Under the pieces are notes generated by a model that saw nothing but the letters and a program-made list of their open reading frames with translations, was not told the origin of the DNA and ran no database searches. Below, piece by piece: positions 17,616 to 59,017 of a stretch of DNA of 64,000 nt. Location: assembly GCA_963680875.1 (NCBI GenBank), contig OY804590.1, positions 25,110,640-25,174,639 of the forward strand, written 5' to 3'. The stretch is from Bathymodiolus brooksi (lineage: Eukaryota; Mollusca; Bivalvia; Mytilida; Modiolidae). The position numbers were made by a program, and so were the translations under genes. Position 1 is the first letter of the stretch, and each line of letters starts with the position of its first letter.

Positions 17616-20600
17616 CTATAAGGAAAGGTATATTCAATATAAAACTGGGTTATTACACTTGTAAAAGAAAAGATGTGATCATTACTTATATTATATGAGC
17701 TTATTGTTGTGGATTTGAAGGTTCTCTGTTACCATGATTTTATCTTAGTATGATTTATATAGCTGTGCAATCAGACCTTATCACCGCTCTAAAGTTATGA
17801 CTCCCAACATCCGCGCATGTCGGTGGTTAACATCGGGTATATCCGGTTTCTTCCACCATTAAATAAAGCTGACCGCCACGATATTACTGAAATATTCGTG
17901 AAAGTTGCGTTTCTCCCATAATATATTATATCGAGCTTGCTGTCGTTTGAACCACCACGATATAACTGAACTATTGTTGAAAGTGTTGTTAAACACCATA
18001 AACCTAGCCTGCTGTTGTATGGTATCTAATTCGTCCTTTTGATTGATACTCTCGTCTGGTTTAGGTACTCTACGTTTATTCCTTATTTTCACTCGGCAAT
18101 CAGAAATGAAGCGGCCATGCAAGTGCTTTCTACGCGTGAAAGTAGAATGCAAATTCTCACTTATATTTGGGTTACCAATTTTGTTGAAAAAATCTTAAAA
18201 ATCATAATCTTGAACTTTATACATAATATATTTAAGAAAAAAAATAAAAAAGGAGATATCAAGTTTAGTGCACACGAAGCGTATCTGGAATAACCTTCAT
18301 CAAGTACGATCAAAGTCGGTTGGAAAACCAAATAACTTAAAAGTTTTGGGAGTAAGTAAACCAAAGGGCCTAAACAGTATCACTAAAATAGACCAAGGTC
18401 ACCTATGTCTGAGTGAGGAGAACCTTGGTTTTAATAATAAAATCAATCAAATATTTTGTGATACTTACAAGACTAAATTCACAAATTATACCCGTCTGTG
18501 TATTTAAACAAGGTGGATTTGCTGGAACAGCCACTCCTGATATTACACCACAGTCAACAATGGTCGGAACGCCTGAAAAAAATAATAAACTTCATGTAAA
18601 TAAATAATTAGGGACTTCGAGTAAGTGATTAACGCGAAGGTAGAAATGTCTTATTATCATACAGTGCATAACATGACAAACAGAGAACAAGTTACTTTAT
18701 GACGATTTGATTTGATTGATTTTTGGTGTTTTAACGCCACTTTCAGCAATATTTCAGCTATATCATGGCGACCAATTTTAGTGGTGGAAGAAGCCAGAGT
18801 ACCAGGAGAGAACCATCGACAATGGGCAAGCAACTGGTAAGCTTTATCACTTACGGCTGCGAGTCGATTGCACCCTTTTTGTAACTGATTTTGTCTGTTT
18901 ATATTATTATGAGTTTTGACTTTCCCTTTGTAAGATTGTTCGGAGTTCGGTAATTTTGTTATTACCCTTATTTACACATCCGGACGCAAACCCACGGCGT
19001 ATTGATGATAGGCTTGTATGAGTTGTTAGGTAATCCAACTACCTGACTCATTGAGCCACCCGGGCCCTACAACTACCTAACACATTGAGCCACCCGGGCC
19101 CTACTTTATGACGAGATGACAAGGACGTCTGCTTAGTAACAGAACAACATGTCGAGCTAGATTTGTCAAGTGCTAACTCATGGAAACGCAAATGCAAAAT
19201 TAACAACTATTGTTTTACCCAAGAGGAGATCGACATAATATTTTCCGAAATCGTGTAGAACAAACCAACCCTTATCTTCGAAGTACACATATGTTTAACC
19301 ATTAGCAGATTGTGAATTGTGATTCTAAACATTGTCAAGATTTAACAAGTTTGAATTTCAACAGATGGCAACATAACATAAGACACAATACATGAAGTAT
19401 TACATCAAGTAACGAGGAAGATAATGACAAGACTTAAAGTAAGTTAAGTAATGACACAGAGTCAAGTAAATTAATACAGAGGCACAGCTTGATTTACAGA
19501 AGTAAGCTAAGTAATGATACAGAGTCACGGTTAGTCTTACAGAAGTAAGTTAAGTAATGACACAGAGTTAAGTAAATTAATACAGAGGCACAGCTTGATT
19601 TACAGAAGTAAGCTAAGTAATGACTTAAAGTATGTTAAGTAATGACACAGAGTCACGGCTTGATATGCCGAAGTAAGTTAAGTAAATTGATACTGAGGCA
19701 CGGCCTGATTTACAGAAGTAAATTAAGTAATGACACAGTCACGGCTTGATATACCGAAGCAAGTTAAGTAATGACACAGAGTCACGGCTTGATATGCCGA
19801 AGCAAGTTAAGTAATGACACAGAGTCACGGCTTGATATGCCGAAGCAAGTTAAGTAAATTGATACAGAGGCACGGCTTGATTTACAAAAGTAAGTTAAGT
19901 AATAATACAGAGTCACGGCTAGGCTTACAGAAGTAGGTTAAGTAATGAAACAGAATCACGGCTTGATTTACAGAAGTAAGATAAGTAATGAAACAGAATC
20001 ACGGCTTGATATGCCAAAGTATATTGTAAGATAAATAATGACACAGAGTCACGGCTTGATTTACCAAAGTAAGCTAAGTAATGACACAGAGTCACGGCTT
20101 GATATACAGAAGTAAGTTAAGTAATGATACAGAGTCACGGCTTGATTTACAGAAGTAAGTTAAGTAAAGATACAGAGTAACGACTTGATTTACCGGAGTA
20201 AGTTAAGTAATGATACAGAGTCACGGCTTGATTTACAGAAGTAAGCTAAGTAAGGATACAGAGTCACGGCTTGATATGCCGAAGCAAGTTAAGTAAATTG
20301 ATACAGAGGCACGGCTTGATTTACCAAAGTAAGCTAAGTAATGATACCGAGTAACGGCTTGATTTACCAAAGTAAGTTAAGTAATGACACAGTCACGGCA
20401 TGCTTTACCAAAATAAGTTAAGTAATGATACAGAATCACGGATAGGTTTACCGAAGTAAGTTAAGTAAAGATACAGTCACGGCTTGATGCATAGAAGTAA
20501 GTTAAGTAATGACATAGAGTCAAGGCTTGATTTACCGAAGTAAGTTAAGTAATGATACAGAGTCACGACTTGATTTACAGAAGTAAGTTAAATGTACGAG

Positions 20601-23600
20601 TATAATGTCATTGATTTTGGTGATGTTTTATGGGTTTTTTCAAGGAGTACATTAAAAACATAAATTAACACTAATTATCGATTTTTAAAGTAAAAAGTCC
20701 ATCCATTTAGTTTTATATTCAAGAAAGCACATCTCGAACACCCTAAGGTGACATTTTACTATGAATGCGCAAAGCCTGTTGTCGCCGTCATACGATAATT
20801 TCAACTGCATGATTCTGCTAGAAAAAGAAACAGGAAAGAAGTTTTTACGAATGATAATAAAACAAGAATTACCATAGGTCACCAACATGGCCATTGGATG
20901 GAATTGAAGGAAGCGTTGAGAGTTTAAACTCATGCTGTAGTGCCATTGCGCATGTAGTTCGGAAATTGGGACATGCATAGTTAAAGATGCTGCTGCACAC
21001 ACAAAAAAACAACGAAACTACACGTTTTCTGGTCGAATCTCACCAGACGACGTTATATACTCATGTTTTGAAAGTATATATTAACGACATTATACCTTTA
21101 AGTAATGATACAGAGTCACGGCATTAGACTTACCAAAGTAATTCAAGTCAAGATACAGTCATTGTAATATTTAGTAAAGAACATCGAGTAATGACAAAGA
21201 CCGTCAAAGAGTCAAAGCTAGAGTCACAGAGTAAATTAAGTAATAACACATTGTCACGACAAGACTTACAAAAAGTAATTTAAATCAAGATACAGTCATT
21301 GCAATATTTATTAAAGAACATCAAGTCATGATAAAGAGTCGCAACAAGGCTTACAAAACATAATAAAGGCCTACGCTATGTGCATCTTGAAACGACCGCA
21401 GCAATTTGACAAACTCTTCCTCCTACACGAGTTTTACTGCAATCAATCAAGTTTTACTTAAAAACCATGTGTAATAGAGGAAACCCTTGTTCCAATCAAT
21501 TCAAAGTAAAGAACTACACATAAAAAACAGATGACAAGTAAAGAGAATGGTATATATCCTCCAGATATGAACATTTCTTTATTTGGGCCTCTTTTAGCCC
21601 CTTTTCCATATTGATTAGCTCATTTTCTGGATAACTTTTTAATAATGAGCCATTTTTTGTTTATTAATACTCAGAGTTCGTATATTGTTATTACCCTTAT
21701 ATATCATATATTAATATACATCTAGAAAACAAATTTTGATTTGAAAACTGGATTTCTAAGAATTTGTTTCTTAAGATTTATAGACAATAGACAATAATTT
21801 ATTAGCACAAACGCAATTACAATAATTGGTAAAGTCCGATTGTAATACAATATCAATAAGGATATGTATATATACAATATATACTAAATTAACAACATAA
21901 ATAACAATTTTATGACATAACTGTATTAAGATATACTATCTTTTCTAATTTTTAACAAATTTGATAATTTGCTAATTCGCACCATAATCATTTTGATTTC
22001 ATTGTATCATTATGGAAGTTTGGAATTTTTTTTTATAATATTAAGATACTTTTTTAAATAATATTTCTCTTTCTTTCCTATATTTTTCGCACAGCCAAAG
22101 AAAATGGTTTTCATCTTCAATTTCTAAATCATTGCATATTTTACAAAATCTTTCAGTTCTATTTATTTGAAAATAGCGGCCTTTTTCAATTTCAAGTTTA
22201 TGGGCACAAATTCTAGAAGTCAAACGGACTATATTATATATTATATTAATTTGATTACTAAAATATGAGTGAGAAACCAATAACGGTTGGGAATAACATT
22301 TCCTGAAAATACATGATATAATAAAATTGTTGTTTCGAGGATTATCAGAGTCGCATAGTTACCTCCGTTAGGAAACATAACACCAACTGCCTGCAATCCA
22401 CTGTTATTGCCTATTACAACATCGACGACATTATTAAATGCATCTGAATGTCCAGTAAAAAATGTTCCTGGATTGCCTGAAAGAATATATATTTATTTTT
22501 GTAAATAAAAATGGGCATTTTCGTTTCTATCGCTCTTCTAGATACATTAGAAAAACAATTCGAATAATAAAATGCAGAGCAAAATCTAAAAGATCGCCAG
22601 GGCGGTTCCAAAATCTAATCCTAACATATGCATGGTCGATCATTCCCCTGGCATAGTACAGCTTCGTCACTAAAAAGTAGCGGTATTAAAGGGCTTATAT
22701 CGGCCCTAACCTTACCTCTTAGTCAAATAGGTGTCTTTTATCGGCCCTAATCTTACCTCTTAGTCAAATAGGTTTCTTTTATCGACCCTAACCATACCTC
22801 TTAGTCTAATAGGTTTCTTGTATCGGCCCTAACCTTACCTCTTAGTCAAATAGGTTTATTTTATCGGCTCTAACCTTACCTCTTAGTAAAATAGGTTTGT
22901 TTTACCGGCCCTAACCTTACCTCTTAGTCAAATATGTGTCTTTTATCGGCCCTAACCTTACCTCTTAGTCGAATAGGTTTCTTTCATCGGCCCTCACCTG
23001 ACCTTTTAGTCAAATAGGTTTGTTTTATCGACCCTAACCTTACCTCTTAGTCAAACAGGTTTCTTTTATCGGCCCTAACCTTACCTATTAGTCAAATAGG
23101 TTTCTTGTATCGGCCCTAACCTTACCTCTTAGTCAAATAGGTTTCTTTTACCGACCCTAACCTTACCTCTTAGTCAAATAGGTTTCTTTTATCGGCCCTA
23201 ACATCACCTCTTAGTCCAATAGGTTTCTTTTATTGGCCCTAACCTTACCTCTTAGTCACATAGGTGTCTTTTATCGACCATAACCTTACCTATTAGTCAA
23301 ATAGGTTTCTTGTATCGGCCCTAACCTTACCTCTTAGTCAAATATGTTTCTTGCATCGGCCCTAAGCTTACCTCTTGGTCAAATAGGTTTCTTTTATCGG
23401 CCCTAACCTTACCTCTAAGTCAAATAGGTTTCTTTTATCGGCTCTAACCTTACCTCTTAGTCAAATAGGTTTCTTTTATCGGCCCTAACCTTACCTCTTA
23501 GTCAAATATGTTTCTTTTATCGGCCTTAACCTTACCTCTTAGTCAAATAGGTTTCTTTTATCGACCCTATCCTTACCTCTTAGTCAAATAGGTTTCTTGT

Positions 23601-26600
23601 ATCGGCCCTAACCTTACCTCTTAGTGAAATATGTTTCTTTTATCGGCCCTAACCTTACCACTTAGTCAAAAATGTTTCTTTTATTGGCCCTAACCTTACC
23701 TCTTAATCAAATAGGTTTCTTTTATCGGCCCCAACCTTACCTCTTAGTCAAATGGGTGTCTTTTATCGACCCTAATCTTACCTCTTAGTCAAATAGGTTT
23801 CTTTTATCGGCCCTAACCTTACCTCTTAGTCAAATATGCTTTTTTTATTGGTCCTAACCTTACCTCTTAGTAAAATATGTTTCTTGTATCGACCCTAACC
23901 TTACCTCTTAGTCAAATGGGTTTCTTTTACCAGGCGTAACCTTTCCTCTTAGTCAAACAGGTTTCTTTTTTCGGCCCTAACCTTACCTCTTAGTCAAATA
24001 TGCTTCTTTTATCGGCCTTAACATTACCTCTTAGTCAAATAGGTTTCTTTTATCGACTCTATCCCTACCTCTTAGTCAAATAGGTTTCTTGTATCGGCCC
24101 TAACCTTACCTCTTAGTCAAATATGTTTTTTTATCGGCCCTAACCTTACCTCTTAGTCAAATAAGTTTCTTTTATTGGCCCTAACCTTACCTCTTAATCA
24201 AATAGGTTTCTTTTATCGGCCCCAACCTTACCTCTTAGTCAGATGGGTTTCTTTTAACGGCCCTAACCTTACCTCTTAATCAAATAGGTTTCTTTTATCG
24301 GCCCAAACCTTACCTCTTAGTCAAATATGCTTTTTTTATTGGTCCTAACCTTACCTCTTAGTAAAATATGTTTCTTGTATCGACCCTAACCTTTCCTCTT
24401 AGTCAAATGGGTTTCTTATACCAGCCGTAACCTTACGTCTTAGTCAAACAGGTTTCTTTATTCGGCCCTAACCTTACCTCTTAGTCAAATAGGTTTCTTT
24501 TATCGGCCCTAACCTTACCTCTTAGTAAAATATGCTTCTTGTATCGGCCCTAACCTTACTTCTTAGTAAAATATGTTTCTTTTATCGGCCCTAACCTTAC
24601 CTCTCAGTAAAATATGTTTCTTTTATCGGCCCTAACCTTACCTCTTAGTAAAATACGTTTCTTTTCTTAATGCTTAGAGAAAAGGTACTTCATACATGAC
24701 ATACACCAGAATAAAGTTGTGTCCAGAAGTTCATTTTCGAGAATACCCGAACATATTATAGACATAAATGACAGGTTTATTTCAGTATTGAACGACAAAG
24801 AAGGAGATATATTTTGTGTATTTACATGTGCCTTACTTCCTAATAGTGCCGAAACAGCGCCAAATTCTCCAGGTGTGTTGAACTCTACAGGTACAGCACC
24901 GTTTGCAGTACAAAATTGCTACAATATAAAACGTTAATATTCAAATACAAATAACATTAAGATGCTTACCAAGTTCGTTTTTTAAACGTGAAACGGTACA
25001 TGTCCTGAGTATATGAGTAAAATTGGTGGGTATCTGATAAGAAGCAGAAACTGCTTACCATTCCGGAAAACCTGAGTTTATCCCTGGTATTTTTTGGGAG
25101 TTTTTTTGGTGGGTTCGTGTTCCTCATTTTTTTCGTTTTCTGTGTTGTATTGTGCTGTTTCGATTGTCTTCAACTTGTATCTGGTGTGCTCAATGTTACC
25201 AGTGTTTCTGGATTGTCCATTCTTGATTACCCTTCTCTTTTCTAAAAGGAGAGTTTGAAGACACCAAAGGGATAATCTGAATCCGTAAATCGAAGGACAG
25301 ACAACATAAAGAAAAGGACAAAAGCAATGATCTACAAAGAACTACACAGAAAACTAAAAATCGAATAACACGAATCCCACTAAAAACCGGGAGTGAACTC
25401 CAGAAAGTAAGCAGTTCCCGGTCCACTATTGGCACCCGTCGTGTTTACTCTAGTAACAAACCCTGTGATAAGTAATGAATAAGGAAAGGACGAGAAAGTG
25501 CTAGCGACAAGTGGAACACATCCGTGGTCATTTGTGACACAGATGTTCCGTAACAGTTATCCAAGTCATGGTGGCCACCGTAAAACTTTCGAAGTGATGA
25601 CTTTAACTTAACCAATAGGAACCCTTGGTTTAGTAGCTTCCTTATTAGTAGCAACCAACCGTCTATCAAGGAAATTATTAATAGCTTTACAGCAAGTACA
25701 TATACTTACTGATGCGTCAACACCGTCTACAACAAGTACATATACTTACTGATGCGTCACCACATCCTCCAACAAGTACATACACTTACTGATGCGTCAA
25801 CAGTCTACAACAAGTACATATACTTACTGAAGCGTCAACACTCTACAACAAGTACATATACTTACTGATGCGTCAGCACAGCCTACAAAAAGTACATATA
25901 CTTACTGATGCGTCAACAGTCTACAACAAGTACATATACTTACTGATGCGTCAACACTCTACAACAAGTACATATACATACTGATGCGTCAGCACAGCCT
26001 ACAAAAAGTACATATACTTACTGATGCGTCAACACAGACTACAAAAAGTACATATACTTACTGATGCATCAGCCGTCTACAACAAGTACATATACTTACT
26101 GATGCTTCAACAGTCTACAACAAGTACATATAATTACTGATGCGTCAACATTCTACAAGTATATATACTTACTGATGCGTCAACAGTCTACAACAAGTAC
26201 ATATACTTACTGATGCGTCAGAGCAGTCTACAACAAGTACATATACTTACTGATGCGTCAAAGGTCTACAACAAGTACACATACTGATGCGTGAGCACAG
26301 TCAACAACAAGTACATATACTTACTGATGCGTCAACACAGTCTACAACAAGTACATAATACTTACTGATGAGTCAACACAGCCAACAACAACTACATAAA
26401 CTTACTGATGCGTGAGCACAGTCTACAGCAAGTACATATACCTACTGATGCGTCAACAGTCTACAACAAGTCCATATCCTTACTGATGCGTCCACAGTCT
26501 ACAACAAGTACATATACTTACTGATGCTTCAACAGTCTGCAACAAGTACATATACTTACTGATGCGTCAACCCAGTCTACAACAAGTACATATACTTACT

Positions 26601-29600
26601 GATGTGTCAACAGTCTACAACAAGTACATATATTTACTGATGAGTCAACACAGCCTAATGTGTGAGCACAGTCTACAGCAATTACATATACCTACTGATG
26701 CGTCAACAGTCTACAACAAGTACATATACTTACTGATGCGTCAACAGTCTTCAACAAGTACATATACTTACTGATGCGTCAACACAGTCTACAAGTACAT
26801 CTACCTACTGATGTGTCAACAGTTTACAACAAGTACATATACATACTGATGCGTCAACACAGTCTACAACAAGTACATATACTTACCAATGTGTGAGGAC
26901 AGTCTACGGCAAGTACAAAAATATACATATACTCACTGATGCGTCAACAGTCTACAAGTACATATACTTACTGATGCGTCAACAGTCTACAACAAGTACA
27001 TATACTTACTGATGCGTCAACATAGTCTACAACAAGTACATATACTTACTGATGCGTCAACACATTCTACAACAAGTACATATACTTACTGATGCGTCAA
27101 CAGTCTACAACAAGTACATATACTTACTGATGCGTCAACACAGTCTACATCAAGTACATATATTTACTGATGCGTCAACACAGTCTACAACAAGTACATA
27201 TACTCACCGATGCGTCAACATAGTGTACAACAAGTACATATACTTACTGATGCGTCAACATAGTCTACATCAAGTACATATATTTACTGATACATCAACA
27301 GTCTACAGCAAGTACATATTCTTACTGATGCGTCAACATAGTCTACAGCAAGTACATATACTTACTGATGCGTCAACATAATTTACAGCAAGTACATATA
27401 CTTACTGATGACATACGAAAATCTAAAGGAGCAGCGGGTGTTATTATTCTGTAACAGCTCTGTAATACAGTACCAGCACCTGCAACATTCGCTGGAATCC
27501 CTATTCTCTGGTAATTCGCTGGACAAGCTGGCATTGGAGTACATGCTACAATAAAGGATAAAAAACATAGCATAGCAACATAAATTCAAAAAATAAATAT
27601 AGCATAACAACATAAATGCAAACAAATAAACATAACATAACAACATAAATGCAAAATAATAAACATAGAATAACAACATAAATGCAAAACATAAACATAG
27701 CATGAGAACATAAATGCAAAAAATAAACATAGCACAACAACATAAATGTTGGTTAAAAGCTCATTATAGCTTATGTTATTGTTTATATATATGCCCGACT
27801 TAAAATACAACTTTTTGTATTTGTATTTGTTGCGTGTGGCAATAACAAAAAATGCAAATCAAAAGTACACATCTAACCACGTGACAACTGGTGAAGGTTA
27901 TTCCAGAAACGCGTCGTACACACTTAATTCGTGATCTACGTTTTTACTGCTACCCTGGGTCGATACCTCTTCTAGTCCCCATGGGCATCATCCGACCAGT
28001 TGTCAATGTTTCGGCTTCGGCCTGGTTTATTATATATATTTATTATTGGAATTTACAATAACTATTTGGATTTAAATCTATAATTAAATGTATTTGCGGG
28101 TATCATTATATTATTGATACATTTTTTTAGTTTATTATTATGTGTGGTATTTAGTGATATCATAAGTAAGGTTAAAATCGAGTTTCGACGTCACTTCCTT
28201 TCTTAACAGAAAATTCCAGATAAGAAAACCGTGAAATTTCTGCCACAAAATAATCGTTCGAGTGTAACTCATCCACGCATTACATACTTTTTTGTTTATT
28301 GTATATTGGTAATGCTTCTTGTTTGTCATATTCTCCGGATCTGAGATAATTTGTGTCTGCCATAACAGTTAGATATGGCTGACGTCGCTTCGCACAAAGA
28401 ACATTAAGGGTTGAACTTGTAAGACAACATTAGCCTATATTTTCCAGGGTTATTAGATCAGCAGTAACTTTCTATCTCATCAATAGGTGTCTATTATGTC
28501 AATCGGTAGATGTACTCAAGTTATCTACAAACATGGAAGACCTCAGTGACACCGGTATATGTACTGAAGTTATACTTATCTACAAACATGAAAGAATTCA
28601 GTGACAGTGGTAAATGTACTTGGGCTATATACTAATCTACAAACATGGAAGACCTCAGTGACACCGGTTAATGTACTGAAGTTATACCTATCTACAATCA
28701 TGGAAGACCTCAGTGACACCGGTTGATGTACTGAAGTTATACCTATCTACAAACATGGAAGACCTCAGTGATACCGGTAGATGTACTGAAGCTATGCTTA
28801 TCTACAAACATGGAAGACCCTAGTGACACCGGTATATGCACTGGAGTTATATACTAATATACAAACATGGAAGACCTCAGTGACACCAGTATATGTACTG
28901 AAGTTATACTTATTTACAAACATGGAAGACCTCAGTGACACCTGTAAATGTACTGATGTTATTCTTATCTACAAACATGGAAGACTTCAGTGACACCGGT
29001 AGATATACTGAAGCTATGCTTATCTACAAACATTGAAGACCTCAATGACACCAGTAGATGTACTGAAGTTATACTTATCTACAAACATGGAAGACCTAAG
29101 TGACACGGTAGATGTACTGAAGATATACTTATCTACAGACATGCAAGACCTCAGTGACACCGGTAGATGTACTGAAGTTATAATTATCTACAAACATGGA
29201 AGACCTCAGTGACACCGGTAGATGTACTGAAGTTATACTTATCTACAAACATGGAAAACCCCAGTGACACCGGTATGTGTACTGGAGTCACATACTAATC
29301 TACAAAAATGGAAGATCTCAGTGACACCAGTAGATGTACTGAAGTTATGCTAATCTACAAACATGGAAGATCTCAGTGAAATCGATAGATGTACTGATGC
29401 TATTCTTATCTACAAACATGGAAGACCTCAGTGACACCGGTAGATGTACTGAAATTATGATTATCTACAAACATGGAAGATCTCCGTGACACCAGTAGAT
29501 GTACTGAAGTTATGCTTATTTACAAACATGGAAGACCTCAGTGACACTGGTAGATGTACTGAAATCATGATTATCTACAAACATGGAAGACCTCAGTGAC

Positions 29601-32600: not shown

Positions 32601-33417
32601 GCTTCAATGGAGTGGTTTGAAGTTAACAATAAGAATATTTCAAAGTTGTATTGATATATGATTTTGGTTTTAAGCAAAATGCAGTACAGTCAAACCTGTC
32701 TATGTGGTCACCTCTATTAAGCAATCACTAAGATAAAGAAGTCAAGGAAAATGTCAAAAATATTTTTTTATCAATGTGTGACGTAAAAGTGTTTTTGACA
32801 TTTACATTCACTGAATATGGTACCGTTTTGACAACTATTTTATCTATTTTTTCCTGTATTTAAATACTGTTATAGTGACAGCCGGAGACTTTGAACCGTA
32901 ATGAGAGCGGGAGGTTTGGAGCTTTAAAATATGATTCAACCCACCATTTCTTTAGAAATGCTTGTACCAAGTCAGGGTCATTACGTTTTCACAGTTTTCC
33001 GGTTGTTGACTGAGTTTGTCTGTTTATATAATTATGAGTTTTGACTTTCCCTTTGTAAGATTGTTCGGAGTTCGGTAATTTTGTTATTTCCCTTATTGTA
33101 TTAAAAGGTCACCTTTTTCTTGTCCTATCATAGAAAATTTCATATGAATTTAACCTCTTTAAAGAGGTCACCTGTCTTATAAGACCACTTAATCTTTGTC
33201 TCAACGGTGATCCCTTTATACAGCTTTGACTGTATTTGAATATATGGCAATAATATGTTGACTCACCTATAAAGCCTAGTCCCAAACCGCCATCACCACC
33301 ACCACCAATTCCGCCAGCGTCAACTAGCCTGGCATTGAAGGCTCCATCTGTGTCCAGTGTTATAGCTGTCGTTAGTGACACGACAACAAGAAGCAGAAAT
33401 ACCACAGGAATGACCAT
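17580..33417 (-). CDS. Secreted C-type-lectin-like domain protein, seven coding exons
   Basis: Coding segments on the minus strand are 33417-33267, 30399-30235, 27545-27406, 24918-24837, 22476-22363, 18572-18469 and 17615-17580, giving 792 coding bases (263 residues plus TGA). Every intron is GT-AG and all junction phases agree (1,1,0,1,1,0). The protein starts with a hydrophobic signal peptide (residues 1-18), then a Gly-rich stretch (about 35-48), a Pro/Thr/Cys-rich linker (about 83-112) and a domain with six cysteines in the long-form C-type lectin order: CPANY, SCYRI, QFC, VDC, PPC, IICE. The WIGL-type motif is represented by FFTGHSD. No EPN, QPD or WND calcium/sugar triplet is seen, so sugar binding is uncertain. 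Such proteins are usually extracellular recognition molecules in molluscs; the function here is inferred. Introns 2-5 each hold a private minisatellite. No close homologue was recognised by name. Confidence 0.85.
17764..18000 (+). mobile_element. SINE family A, degraded copy with repeated tail
   Basis: GTCGGTGGTTAACATCGGGT and CTGACCGCCACGATATTACT are followed by a second tail (CCACGATATAACTGAACTAT to GTTAAACACCATAAAC). It lies in intron 6 of the lectin-like gene. Confidence 0.65.
18469..18572 (-). CDS. Lectin-like gene, coding exon 6 (end of the lectin domain)
   Basis: Acceptor ttttttcag| at 18574-18573. The preferred donor is AGTCTT|gtaagtat (18468-18467), phase 0. It encodes VPTIVDCGVISG, NPPCLNTQTG and IICEFSL; the last three domain cysteines end in the ICE pattern typical of the C-type lectin C terminus. 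An alternative donor (CGG|gtataa, exon end 18492) would cut before the final cysteine and is less likely. Without splicing, the frame would run 22 more residues to a TAG. Confidence 0.8.
18712..19100 (-). mobile_element. tRNA-derived SINE (family C) with an 88-bp insertion, intron 5
   Basis: On the minus strand it runs from a GGGTGGCTCAATGAG-type head, through a B-box-like GGGTTTGCGTCC, a core (GATGGTTCTCTCCTGGTACT) and the shared tail GCTGAAAGTGGCGTTAAAAC. A second copy at 45085-45262 lacks the 88-bp stretch at about 18882-18970, so that stretch is a later insertion. Confidence 0.7.
18882..18970. mobile_element. 88-bp mobile repeat unit
   Basis: The segment from CTGATTTTGTCTG to TTATTACCCTTA interrupts a SINE here. 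The same sequence forms one edge of larger repeats at 33005-33095 and, inverted, at 61226-61312. No clear TIR was identified. Confidence 0.55.
19425..20587 (-). repeat. 43-bp minisatellite in intron 5 (main block)
   Basis: About 26 units, plus-strand core TAAGTTAAGTAATGACACAG then AGTCACGGCTTGATTTACAG and AAG. Some units lack the GAG or carry ATGCCG in place of TTTACA, suggesting higher-order subfamilies. It is interrupted at 20588 by a TTAA-flanked insertion and resumes in degenerate form after 21098. Confidence 0.92.
20592..21097. mobile_element. 506-bp TTAA-targeting non-autonomous DNA transposon
   Basis: The 43-bp array is cut at TTAA (20588-20591) and restarts at TTAA (21098-21101). Joining the two sides restores a perfect repeat unit, so TTAA is a 4-bp target duplication, as in piggyBac and Kolobok families. 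Near the ends sit inverted GTATAATGTC (20600-20609) and GACATTATAC, an imperfect TIR. A 105-residue minus frame inside lacks any recognised domain. Confidence 0.75.
21098..21360 (-). repeat. 43-bp minisatellite, degenerate remainder
   Basis: Resumes in register after the insertion (TTAAGTAATGATACAGAGTCACGG) and then decays. It includes two longer units of roughly 130 bp sharing AAGATACAGTCATTG and AAAGAACATC. Confidence 0.75.
21780..22280 (-). pseudogene. LINE reverse-transcriptase C-terminal fragment with 3' tail
   Basis: The minus frame 22280-22041 encodes KLEIEKGRYFQINRTERFC, KIC, and IEDENHFLWLCEKYRKER. This is the Cys/His knuckle (C..C...H....C) found at the C terminus of many LINE ORF2 proteins. 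Below it is an AT-rich 3' UTR ending in short direct repeats of ATTGTCT near 21785. The 5' part (endonuclease and reverse transcriptase) is missing, the usual 5' truncation of LINEs. It lies in intron 5, in gene orientation. Confidence 0.65.
22363..22476 (-). CDS. Lectin-like gene, coding exon 5
   Basis: Acceptor attctttcag| at 22478-22477 and donor AACGGAG|gtaact. It enters in phase 1 (A plus GC gives Ser) and ends in phase 1. It encodes NPGTFFTGHSDAFNN and GLQAVGVMFPNG, which lie where the WIGL motif and long loop of a C-type lectin domain are expected. The Trp usual in WIGL is missing. Confidence 0.86.
22690..24665 (-). repeat. 41-bp minisatellite in intron 4
   Basis: About 48 units, plus-strand core CCCTAACCTTACCTCTTAGT then CAAATAGGTTTCTTTTATCGG. 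On the transcript strand each unit contains GAG|GTAAGG, a good match to a vertebrate/invertebrate splice donor. The array starts about 170 bp from the exon 4 donor. CCCTAACC resembles a telomere repeat but is embedded in a 41-bp unit and is not telomeric. Confidence 0.93.
24837..24918 (-). CDS. Lectin-like gene, coding exon 4
   Basis: Acceptor tattgtag| at 24920-24919 and donor TTAGGAA|gtaagg. It enters in phase 0 and leaves in phase 1. It encodes QFCTANGAVPVEF and GEFGAVSALLG, matching the helix-2 region of C-type lectin folds (C, a small-residue stretch, then E..F..V..LL). The frame is open only over the predicted exon and its near flanks. Confidence 0.86.
25010..25240 (+). mobile_element. 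Penelope-like 3' UTR fragment, opposite orientation
   Basis: Contains the family's 3' landmarks on the plus strand (GAAGCAGAAACTGCTTACC, the CCTGAGTTTATCCC box, then TTGATTACCC and a terminal TTTGAAG-type end) and faces the fragment at 25240-25685. Confidence 0.55.
25240..25685 (-). pseudogene. Penelope-like element 3' fragment in intron 3
   Basis: The minus frame 25669-25445 encodes RKLLNQGFLLVKLKSSLRKF, YGGHHDL and SVSQMTTDVFHLS, the C terminus of Penelope-like proteins abundant in bivalves. The 3' UTR follows down to about 25240 (plus-strand hallmark GTAAATCGAAGGACAGACAA). Only the last 75 or so residues remain. A second partial 3' UTR lies head to head at 25020-25240, an inverted arrangement common for these elements. 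Confidence 0.7.
25686..27411 (-). repeat. 38-41-bp minisatellite in intron 3, containing the exon 3 splice donor
   Basis: About 44 units, plus-strand core CAGTCTACAACAAGTACATA then TACTTACTGATGCGTCAA. Read on the transcript strand each unit holds GCATCA|GTAAGTATATGTAC, which matches the real exon 3 donor CATCA|gtaagtatatgtac. The array starts at that donor with no gap and fills the first 1.7 kb of the intron. Most units keep the donor intact; a minority have changes such as TCACTG or TACCAATG. The far edge abuts a Penelope-like fragment. Confidence 0.93.
27406..27545 (-). CDS. Lectin-like gene, coding exon 3 (start of the lectin domain)
   Basis: Acceptor ttattgtag| at 27547-27546 and donor ATGTCATCA|gtaagtat. 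It enters in phase 1 (C plus CA gives Pro) and ends in phase 0 after 46 whole codons. It encodes CPANYQRI and SCYRIITPA, the first cysteine pair of a long-form C-type lectin domain. The donor and its neighbouring bases are the start of the intron 3 minisatellite, so the exon's last six bases recur in almost every repeat unit. Confidence 0.87.
27563..27748 (-). repeat. 33-bp tandem repeat next to the exon 3 acceptor
   Basis: Six units, plus-strand core ATAGCATAACAACATAAATG then CAAACAAATAAAC. In the transcript it is T-rich and ends 17 bases before the exon 3 acceptor, so it overlaps the usual branch-point and polypyrimidine zone. Confidence 0.85.
28502..30050 (-). repeat. 55-bp minisatellite in intron 2 of the lectin-like gene
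   Basis: About 27 units of roughly 55 bp. The plus-strand core is CTTATCTACAAACATGGAAG, then ACCTCAGTGACACCGGTAGA and TGTACTGAAG. Units differ by point changes, and a minority carry a longer variant (TATACTAATCTAC). The array lies about 185 bp inside the intron from the exon 2 donor. Open frames across it are artefacts of repetition. Confidence 0.93.
30235..30399 (-). CDS. Lectin-like gene, coding exon 2 (hydrophobic and Pro/Thr/Cys linker)
   Basis: Acceptor cgttttcag| at 30400-30401 and donor AACAC|gtatgc at 30234-30233. The 165-bp exon enters in phase 1 (G from exon 1 plus CT gives Ala) and leaves in phase 1. It encodes APLIGLAVLAAIAG, a short hydrophobic segment, followed by a Pro/Thr-rich stretch with a CPIC pair and a further Cys. 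The donor is the weakest of the gene (gtatgc), but the phase match to exon 3 is exact. Confidence 0.82.
30400..32684. other. Intron 1 of the lectin-like gene, remaining sequence
   Basis: AT-rich with homopolymer runs (G10 near 31545). A dispersed motif at 30509-30575 (TTGAATCTCTGTATCTCGAA, then TTCGACTTATCC repeated) is of the kind scattered through invertebrate genomes. A scrap of dispersed repeat D lies at 32120-32200. Short open frames on both strands at 31225-31785 look like AT-rich chance. Confidence 0.5.
32685..33234. mobile_element. TA-flanked TIR element (MITE) in intron 1
   Basis: The left end TACAGTCAAACCTGTCTATG and right end CTTTGACTGTA are inverted repeats over about 28 bp with a few mismatches. 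Both begin at TA, as for Tc1/mariner-type MITEs. Positions 32735-33095 recur inverted at 61225-61585, including the 88-bp unit at 33005-33095. No coding capacity is visible. Confidence 0.65.
33267..33417 (-). CDS. Lectin-like gene, coding exon 1 (signal peptide)
   Basis: ATG at 33417-33415 opens fifty codons ending in phase 1 at a consensus donor, ATAG|gtgagt. The first 18 residues, MVIPVVFLLLVVVSLTTA, are a textbook signal peptide with a likely cut after TTA. The rest is acidic and then Gly-rich (GGIGGGGDGGLGLGF). Four bases upstream of the ATG lies a pyrimidine-rich tract ending in CAG, so this exon probably begins at 33421 after a 5'-UTR intron. Confidence 0.87.
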
Positions 33418-53600: not shown

Positions 53601-54846
53601 GCCCGGTTTGCGGCCCCGTTAACGGATATAATCACCGTGGGAACTTCCGTAAGAACGGACCAATCAACGACGACGATTCACGCCACAGCCAAAAGTGTGG
53701 AGTCTGCGTATATGTAAAAGGCCATCGTCTGCACACCACATGAGGGACCCCCGACAATCATAGACGGCAGCGAAAATATCAGACAGCAACTACTATTGAC
53801 ACCATAGTCTAAGAACGACCAGTTTAAACCAAAGAGACGTTAAATCCGTAACCTGGATATCAGTACATTACCAGTTCGTTTTCATTTTATTTACACGTAT
53901 TTCGACTTGACCTAGATGTTTTACTACGATTTTACTACGACTTTATGACGACCGACAATACCATAGGGGGACCTCATATTTATTATTATCGCTCACGGGG
54001 AAGTTATATTATTGTTGTACTTGAATATATTATTACACTTGAACATAAATCATGGCAGTCAGTTTTTTTAGTGGAGGAAACTGGAGTACCCGGCGAAAAC
54101 CACCGTCCTGTCGAAAACCGTTCATTACCAAATATGGCCTTCCTGAAAACTCAAACTTACCATTTGCTGATGTAATATCACAGCTGTATTCAGCAGAATA
54201 TTAAAACTGGTCTAACAATGATTAACATGGGTAGAATGTTTAACATATGTAGATTATGCTACTGTACTTTGGCACAGATTTTCAAAAACACATGACCAAC
54301 TTATACAAGTAATACGTCGTTTTCACAAGTATAATCTGAAACTAAAACAGAAACAGTCATCTTTTCCAAATAAACGTTAGAGAACACCGAAGGGACAATC
54401 AAAAAATGACAATCCAGAGAAACTGGCAACAATGACAAAAATGAGGCAGAATTTCTTGGGACAATAGTCGTTGTTATGTCTATCTCAATAAATCCAGATA
54501 ATACCGAAACGATATCCAAGTGGTTTGTACCTAAAACAAAAAAGAATAAATATCAGATATACTGGACAATTTCGATATTTTCTTAATAAAATCCATTAAA
54601 CAATATTAATGTAATAATTGTGACGTTTTCACATCATAATTCACATCAACCCACAACCAACATCAGCACTGGATCCACCATCTTGGTGTGGTTAATGCAG
54701 AATGTGAAAAACCAAGTAATAAAGTTATGTTTTATAGCAAAAAGCGTGTAAAAAAATACAAATATCAAGGTTTTTTTGTTACTATACAAGATAGTATTGA
54801 TGAACTACGAATACATTTTTTAATATCAATCATTTATTTTCTAGGT
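50676..54846. repeat. 4171-bp tandem duplication, copy 1
   Basis: Every base aligns with 54847-59017 at an offset of 4171. By eye only a few differences exist (for example 51454 G versus C at 55625; one each near 52843, 53538 and 53630). It contains the outer right arm, the LTR-like block and the start of the next arm copy. Confidence 0.92.
53063..54049 (+). mobile_element. LTR-like 987-bp block (solo LTR candidate), copy 1
   Basis: Begins TGTAACGAATAGGGTGTAAG and is bounded by TCATGG on both sides (53057-53062 and 54050-54055). It contains a TATA-like CCTTATAAACC. It has no long frame and separates two arm copies. The expected terminal CA is not exactly at the TCATGG boundary (a CA occurs at 54044-54045), so the LTR call is tentative. 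Confidence 0.45.
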
Positions 54847-57231: not shown

Positions 57232-59017
57232 GGTGTAACGAATAGGGTGTAAGGCATAGGAGATAATATCGTTTGTATGTATGCATATATGACACTTTTA
57301 TTTATTCTTGTTATTCTGGCACATTTTCACTTTGTTCTTGTTGTTGATACCGTGCCGTATTCCGGTGCCTTGAGTAACTGTCGCGACTGTGATGTGATTG
57401 AATGAACACTATTCTCGTTTCAGGTATCGTGATCGCGAATATTTATTGTATGTAAATTGTTGTTATTTTAGACGGGAAATATATAGTTAGGACAGAGTTC
57501 GTTCTCATTGTTTGACCAAAAGGGGGGCCTACGACAACTTCCCAATGTTTTGTTCTCCTTGACCTTATAAACCTTGTGTCACATTCTCTTACCTTTTTCA
57601 TTGATTCATGCTAGGTTTATATATTGTACTTGGGCTTGATTTCTATACGGGTAAGCTTTATTAAGCCCGTTTTCCCTTTCATCTTGACATGACAAACTAT
57701 ATTTATTCTTTCCGCCATGTGTATCCTGTATGTAATTTAGTGAGCATGTGTGTTACCTCACACTTTATGTGGCCCGGTTTGCGGCCCCGTTAACGGATAT
57801 AATTACCGTGGGAACTTCCGTAAGAACGGACCAATCAACGACGACGATTCACGCCACAGCCAAAAGTGTGGAGTCTGCGTATATGTAAAAGGCCATCGTC
57901 TGCACACCACATGAGGGACCCCCGACAATCATAGACGGCAGCGAAAATATCAGACAGCAACTACTATTGACACCATAGTCTAAGAACGACCAGTTTAAAC
58001 CAAAGAGACGTTAAATCCGTAACCTGGATATCAGTACATTACCAGTTCGTTTTCATTTTATTTACACGTATTTCGACTTGACCTAGATGTTTTACTACGA
58101 TTTTACTACGACTTTATGACGACCGACAATACCATAGGGGGACCTCATATTTATTATTATCGCTCACGGGGAAGTTATATTATTGTTGTACTTGAATATA
58201 TTATTACACTTGAACATAAATCATGGCAGTCAGTTTTTTTAGTGGAGGAAACTGGAGTACCCGGCGAAAACCACCGTCCTGTCGAAAACCGTTCATTACC
58301 AAATATGGCCTTCCTGAAAACTCAAACTTACCATTTGCTGATGTAATATCACAGCTGTATTCAGCAGAATATTAAAACTGGTCTAACAATGATTAACATG
58401 GGTAGAATGTTTAACATATGTAGATTATGCTACTGTACTTTGGCACAGATTTTCAAAAACACATGACCAACTTATACAAGTAATACGTCGTTTTCACAAG
58501 TATAATCTGAAACTAAAACAGAAACAGTCATCTTTTCCAAATAAACGTTAGAGAACACCGAAGGGACAATCAAAAAATGACAATCCAGAGAAACTGGCAA
58601 CAATGACAAAAATGAGGCAGAATTTCTTGGGACAATAGTCGTTGTTATGTCTATCTCAATAAATCCAGATAATACCGAAACGATATCCAAGTGGTTTGTA
58701 CCTAAAACAAAAAAGAATAAATATCAGATATACTGGACAATTTCGATATTTTCTTAATAAAATCCATTAAACAATATTAATGTAATAATTGTGACGTTTT
58801 CACATCATAATTCACATCAACCCACAACCAACATCAGCACTGGATCCACCATCTTGGTGTGGTTAATGCAGAATGTGAAAAACCAAGTAATAAAGTTATG
58901 TTTTATAGCAAAAAGCGTGTAAAAAAATACAAATATCAAGGTTTTTTTGTTACTATACAAGATAGTATTGATGAACTACGAATACAATTTTTTAATATCA
59001 ATCATTTATTTTCTAGG
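54847..59017. repeat. 4171-bp tandem duplication, copy 2
   Basis: Head-to-tail copy of 50676-54846. Homology with 50676-50758 continues perfectly to about 59100 and then drops sharply (TATATAAACGAAG versus TATTTAAGCGAAG). This marks the recombination zone. Confidence 0.92.
57234..58220 (+). mobile_element. LTR-like block, copy 2
   Basis: Duplicate of 53063-54049 at an offset of 4171, with at most two differences seen. It arose as part of the tandem duplication, not as the second LTR of one provirus. Confidence 0.45.

Follow-up and report, generated by a model that had tools for sequence, protein, structure and literature searches.

A minus-strand minisatellite in the bivalve Bathymodiolus brooksi begins at the junction between an exon and its intron, and its repeat unit appears to have been built from sequence on both sides of that junction. 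It lies in a 64,000-nt stretch of DNA (G000:C19:25110640-25174639 of a 2.0-Gb assembly; called the window here) and belongs to a gene of which we found 13 family members, all with an array at this same donor. We consider it very probable that the array is a largely neutral minisatellite of the type described as 'mirages' in lancelets, extreme in its copy number, that arose as a tolerated by-product when a splice junction was tandemly duplicated. The elements concerned are listed below, with positions given for the window and bars marking junctions.

27406..27545, minus strand: array-bearing exon (exon 3 of an earlier note on this DNA), 140 nt, with a phase-0 end; TGTAG|CATGTACTCC...TCATCA|GTAAGT; 13 family members
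27400..27405, minus strand: true donor, GTAAGT; unchanged in all 13 members
27389..27405, minus strand: first unit, 17-nt intron-start part (GTAAGTATATGTACTTG), assigned by sequence
27366..27388, minus strand: first unit, 23-nt exon-derived part, assigned by sequence; the next donor is at 27365
25688..27410, minus strand: minisatellite of the 'mirage' type across the junction; 43.7 copies, unit of 38/40 nt; 30 GTAAGT counting the true donor

An array that starts at a splice donor

The exon (27545-27406) ends ...CGTATGTCATCA at 27406, or written longer ...TATGTCATCA, and the intron opens with GTAAGTATATGTACTTG at 27405. The junction reads CATCA|GTAAGT and the array begins at that very point. 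Tandem Repeats Finder (TRF) describes a single array with a period of about 40, 43.7 copies and 82% matches, which takes in the exon's last five bases; most units are 38 or 40 nt long. The 1718 nt from the donor on contain 30 GTAAGT hexamers (true donor included), 23 copies of the 17-mer that opens the intron, 20 copies of CATCA plus this 17-mer (the exon's own copy excluded) and 15 of TTGTTGTAGACTG, together with eight exact copies of a 15-nt 'micro-exon' form and five of a 17-nt form. A wrap-around alignment divides the array into 45 segments, with GT in 43 and GTAAGT in 31. The array donors are of the form TCA|GTAAGT, from which the consensus exonic AG is absent. The earlier note had described roughly 44 units, each repeating GCATCA before a donor; the copy number stands but 'each' does not, given 20 copies of CATCA plus the 17-mer and 30 of GTAAGT. 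Its dozens of decoy donors downstream of the true one are supported.

DNA and protein searches of the same genome recovered 13 members of the family, a lower bound, with 12 on contig C19 and one on C4. All 13 arrays begin at the same donor, with TRF starts between -11 and -2 from it, and the presence of an array at the same junction in the 13 members found goes beyond chance. By TRF, the arrays of the C19 members span 898 to 7542 bp and that of the C4 member is split into blocks reaching 5149 bp; by alignment, members have 23 to 194 segments, a comparison of lengths among paralogues. The exon-adjacent GTAAGT is intact in every member, although automated scoring gave 12 owing to a gap in L021.

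The unit joins an exon end to an intron start

Evidence for the origin of the unit comes from an ungapped comparison, backward from the donor, of the last 23 exon bases with the unit tail TTGTAGACTGTGTTGACGCATCA. In the 13 members 12-18 of the 23 bases are identical (mean 14.5), against a background at other exon positions of 5.8 +/- 2.1 with a maximum of 12, which was reached 11 times in 1300 comparisons. In 12 members the highest score belongs to the placement flush with the donor, which in L021 is tied; exon and unit agree in none of the 13 at -31 to -33. Judged by this alignment, the unit consists of 17 nt from the start of the intron followed by about 23 nt from the end of the exon. The comparison supersedes a 12-nt tail test, in which 6-10 of 12 bases matched against a background mean of 3.0 and a maximum of 7; an upstream 12-nt control was also high there (7-10) because the similarity extends deeper into the exon and because taking the best of many units inflates the score. 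The proposal that the array grew from the exon-intron junction itself is supported by a tail that resembles the exon end in all 13 members.

Individual members illustrate the relationship. In L012 the exon ends CTT GTA GAT TTT CGT GGC GCA TCA and the unit tail reads TT GTA GAC TGT GTT GAC GCA TCA. From this alignment, the TTGTAG|ACT that resembles an acceptor within the unit is a copy of two codons, GTA GAY (Val-Asp). The exon of the C4 member ends in GGATCA, and its repeat junctions comprise 23 of GGATCA|GTA and 45 of GCATCA|GTA, while GGATCA|GTA occurs nowhere in the 12 C19 arrays. That GGATCA is common to the C4 exon end and 23 of its repeats points to a shared history after the C4 and C19 loci parted.

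One conserved donor among probably drifting decoys

Conservation was assessed in 560 internal units from nine arrays, the near duplicates L011, L013 and L015 and the divergent L021 being omitted. Donor positions +1 to +6 diverge by 0.066, compared with 0.051 for the whole unit, and rank 32nd of 40 windows from most to least conserved. GTAAGT is kept in 63% of these internal units and in 5 of the 13 second units (L021 by eye), and at the exon-adjacent site it is kept in all 13 members. The last result would have a probability of 0.003 (0.632^13) if the members were independent, but they are related by descent, and this same motif had served to locate the site. Translation continued in frame beyond the true donor is stopped within the first unit in all members but L018 (12 of 13). 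In L018 the stop comes in the second unit; splicing from the first decoy would encounter none there but would shift the frame by 40 nt. Taken as they stand, these statistics speak for one selected donor and neutral decoys.

Similar arrays elsewhere in the genome

A scan for three AGGTAAGT at minisatellite spacing listed at least 10 arrays on contig C1, a second scan listed five more, and all 15 listed arrays were read (L022-L031 and L035-L039). Seven begin inside an apparent exon and have a unit made of exon end plus intron start (L022, L025, L026, L027, L029, L035 and L038), with two copies only at L035. By protein homology L029 is STRIP1 (E 1.2e-19) and L025 is PUS7 (E 9.1e-23 with the following exon attached). 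L022 weakly resembles an ERI exonuclease (E 4.8); an ERI-type next exon was looked for and not found. At L026, L027, L035 and L038 the apparent exons were called by eye from open frame and splice signals. A guess that L038 is HSPA12 was dropped for want of any NCBIfam, Pfam or PDB match, and Pfam searches with parts of three other loci returned no families. No exon was recognised by eye in L023, L024, L028, L030, L031, L036 or L037, and the sequence of L039 is filled by its array.

A scan for an acceptor motif listed at least four arrays, three of which were read. L032 (C1:27519400-27522600) holds an acceptor-side array of 25 copies of 51 nt that ends in an exon of the IP3 receptor (E 2.5e-26 for the whole exon), the true exon being the last array copy; no exon was recognised in L033 or L034. 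Since the conserved STRIP1, PUS7 and IP3-receptor proteins continue across the array, splicing at these three genes would have to use the outermost true site. Across the genome, donors were not shown to be over-represented in arrays: AGGTAAGT triples number 12,965 against 4,491 for the reversed motif, 8,167 for GATGAAGT and 8,556 for its reverse, counts that are dominated by a few large arrays. For two copies of ACAGGTAAGT the reversed control exceeds the donor (1,207 versus 925). The acceptor motif has 3,312 matches versus 1,896 when reversed, and C1 up to 73.2 Mb holds 10 donor arrays (two look-alike copies) versus 4 and 3 for the controls.

Relation to lancelet mirages

Minisatellite-like duplications of intron-exon boundaries, at either boundary, have been described as 'mirages' in the globin and Adh3 genes of amphioxus; AG/GT signals occur in many units there, and regular splicing is reported both in Adh3 data and by reverse transcription PCR of globins (PMC3087553). 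Further lancelet cases in PGBD5 and troponin C appear in a second paper (PMC3902484), and in both papers the mirages are reported not to disturb splicing (PMC3087553, PMC3902484). Judged by its composition, the window array is of the same kind. The unit holds exon and adjoining intron sequence in all 13 members, and splice signals recur in many units, as seen in the 30 GTAAGT of the window and the 63% of internal units that keep it. The two sets also share edge units that stand apart from the inner ones and, when the other loci are included, effects on either the 5' or the 3' boundary. Splicing may likewise be undisturbed at the present arrays, to judge from the exons that continue across them in STRIP1, PUS7 and the IP3 receptor.

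There are differences of scale and range. The arrays described here have 23-194 units, whereas the two BflGb6 haplotypes of lancelets have 3 and 6, and they are common to a family of at least 13 genes; STRIP1, PUS7 and the IP3 receptor supply additional cases. The reported cases considered here all come from lancelets and the present host is a mollusc, which is a matter of range and not a mechanistic criterion; a literature search of partial coverage found no report of mirages in a mollusc. Given this host, mirages would not be a lancelet oddity. Two other systems are related. Duplication of AG|GT proto-splice sites, described as a route to intron gain (PMC3087553), likewise gives extra splice signals through tandem duplication across a splice junction, but the present family has no evident new intron and its donors are CA|GT, not AG|GT. 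Human internal tandem repeats in segmental duplications also place minisatellites at the exon-intron boundaries of paralogues; there, exon or intron changes in transcripts are reported (PMC2812944), whereas the present arrays were compared as DNA.

A probably neutral array and the case against it

We envisage the following course of events. In an ancestral gene, about 23 nt of exon end and 17 nt of intron start were tandemly duplicated across the 5' splice junction, as the sequence comparison shows. Amplification by slippage or unequal exchange may have followed, and the array was presumably copied along as the gene multiplied. The exon-adjacent, upstream-most donor would be used and the whole array removed with the intron. 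Decoys would drift neutrally while selection keeps the true donor, which agrees with the sequence statistics above, and an array of this sort may preserve fossil copies of older exon ends. In such arrays the true donor faces tens to hundreds of near-identical competitors, which makes them natural test cases; if protein is made the upstream-most donor must win, so that the standing question of 5' splice-site choice among equal sites becomes testable.

Several points weigh against this account. Within the 23 nt, positions -8, -11, -14 and -16 match in 0 or 1 of 13 members, and beyond the 23 nt, positions -34 and -37 match in 13 of 13. The exon end was set by script at the first GTAAGTAT in the search window, and intactness of the true donor is thus partly a selection criterion, with the script's placement agreeing with both the reading frame and the exon alignment. 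The members share descent and are not independent; 13 of 13 therefore overstates the support, and the decay of donors in second units probably goes back to a small number of events. The gene product obtains no identity from Pfam, and one member, L009, has a 16-nt frame-breaking exon deletion and may be a pseudogene. Finally, the hypervariable exon end among members is not accounted for by passenger status.

This last point concerns the final eight exon codons (27406-27429), which lie inside the unit. Among 10 members (L009, L011 and L015 omitted), the ratio of nonsynonymous to synonymous differences per site (pN/pS) is 3.0 in these codons (pN 0.37, pS 0.12) and 0.73 in 31 codons of the exon body (pN 0.057, pS 0.078); the pairwise distance among 11 members is 0.30 in the last eight codons and 0.077 in the body. 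Synonymous change is just mildly raised, which points to protein-level selection rather than exchange with the array, but with eight codons and shared ancestry such selection is a lead only. An alternative is that the junction and the array exchange sequence and that the array serves as a template store diversifying the last codons of a secreted protein. The GGATCA found in the C4 exon end and in 23 of its own repeats, and lacking at the repeat donors of all 12 C19 arrays, would fit this idea. Exon-end letters at several positions are, however, rare or absent among units, and we regard a template store as improbable. Gene conversion from array to exon in particular is disfavoured, the exon-end letters at -3, -8, -11 and -16 being in many cases scarce or missing at the corresponding positions of the units.

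A second alternative grants the decoys a function, either by binding many U1 small nuclear ribonucleoproteins and protecting the intron from premature polyadenylation or by tuning splicing through stop-containing isoforms. Suppression of premature polyadenylation by U1 is established (PMC3826338), and the 30 GTAAGT from the true donor on, the array in all 13 members found and a second array in the next intron, whose consensus unit has a sense-strand AG|GTAAGG in every member, are all in keeping with it. Other observations speak against it. Positions +1 to +6 show no more conservation than the remainder of the unit, which gives no support to selection for the U1 binding that the earlier note had raised as a possibility; second-unit donors are altered in 8 of 13 members; and the array-bearing intron in the window has no AATAAA or ATTAAA on its sense strand. 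Predicted local pairing in nine arrays makes the true donor less accessible than every tested internal donor in two, and at least as accessible as 64-83% of internal donors in the other seven. We give functional decoys a slim chance. An RNA hairpin that hides the decoys was also considered and rejected: GUAAGUAUAUGUACUUG can self-fold, but pairing predominates at first and internal donors alike, with no consistent difference between them in the nine arrays.

The idea that units act as micro-exons or alternative donors, adding peptide repeats such as TVDAS, is very unlikely to be correct. The window array does contain eight exact 15-nt forms between TAG| and |GT, and the phase 0 proposed for the end of exon 3 and the start of exon 4 is confirmed by the open frames. 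The supposed acceptor TTGTAG|ACT nevertheless corresponds to coding sequence, the Val-Asp codons, in the true exons too. Within a unit the distance from donor to 'acceptor' is about 23 nt. To our knowledge, this is below any known intron length. In-frame peptide repeats through donor choice fare no better, as use of decoys runs into the stops in the first unit (12 of 13 members) or, in L018, in the second or a frame shift. Scarcely credible, lastly, is an array that merely adjoins a chance open frame, with an exon that is not real or ends elsewhere: the absence of a Pfam match, a C-type lectin chain at only E 1.6 and the frame-breaking deletion in L009 could be read in this way, but against it stand the compatible exon phases, exon lengths that differ by multiples of three among 12 of the 13 members, the exon body pN/pS, if only mildly below 1, and the signal-peptide exon found in other public contigs.

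Host gene and other features

The remaining parts of the gene, and the repeats that accompany them, are these:

33267..33417, minus strand: first coding exon; phase-1 end at G|GTGAGT; signal-peptide-like, Gly-rich start (MVIPVVFLLL...GLGLGFI); homologues among predicted proteins are P0002, P0003, P0015, P0024
27563..27748, minus strand: 32-bp T-rich array directly upstream of the acceptor (TRF); listed in 12 of 13 members, not in L020
24837..24918, minus strand: next exon (exon 4 of the earlier note), phase-0 start; TTGTAG|CAATTTTG...TTAGGAA|GTAAGG
22694..24665, minus strand: second minisatellite (41 bp x 48.1 by TRF), located in the next intron; consensus unit with sense-strand GAG|GTAAGG; 13 of 13 members
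22363..22476, minus strand: probable following exon; TTTCAG|GCAATCC...GGAG|GTAACT; similar frame in 4 other loci

The array-bearing exon is in a phase that matches the first coding exon. Searches of public predicted proteins from ENA/JGI contigs gave 24 matches, nine of which were opened: P0002, P0003, P0015 and P0024 cover the first exon, and P0001, P0010, P0016, P0017 and P0022 span the second exon and read through the donor into the first unit, two of them reaching the second unit. These five may come from the same species as the window. A 179-aa model of the product, which is partial and whose final residues probably lie beyond a donor, matched no Pfam families at E <= 10. A C-type lectin domain found no support in Pfam profiles (0 families), and a C-type lectin chain in the PDB appeared only at E 1.6. 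A 'lectin-like' label would rest on the cysteine pattern.

The second array (41 bp) varies from 8 to at least 180 copies across the 13 members, and its window copy starts about 170 nt after the donor of the next exon. A further 43-bp array at 19474-20591 has the consensus AA|GTAAGTTAAG on the plus strand, antisense to the array-bearing gene. Two contigs of the assembly were noted in passing. C78 holds two COX1-family open frames without internal stops, which suggests a bacterial contig (symbiont or contaminant). C136 carries cox2-nad1-cox1-nad3 on one strand, named from translations and in the case of cox1 also by family search; this order differs from that of lancelet mitochondria, and an Rfam search of the mitochondrial piece gave no matches. 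Elsewhere in the window, identical 107-aa open frames at 53852-54175 and 58023-58346 on the plus strand, about 4.2 kb apart, are likely the product of a recent local duplication.

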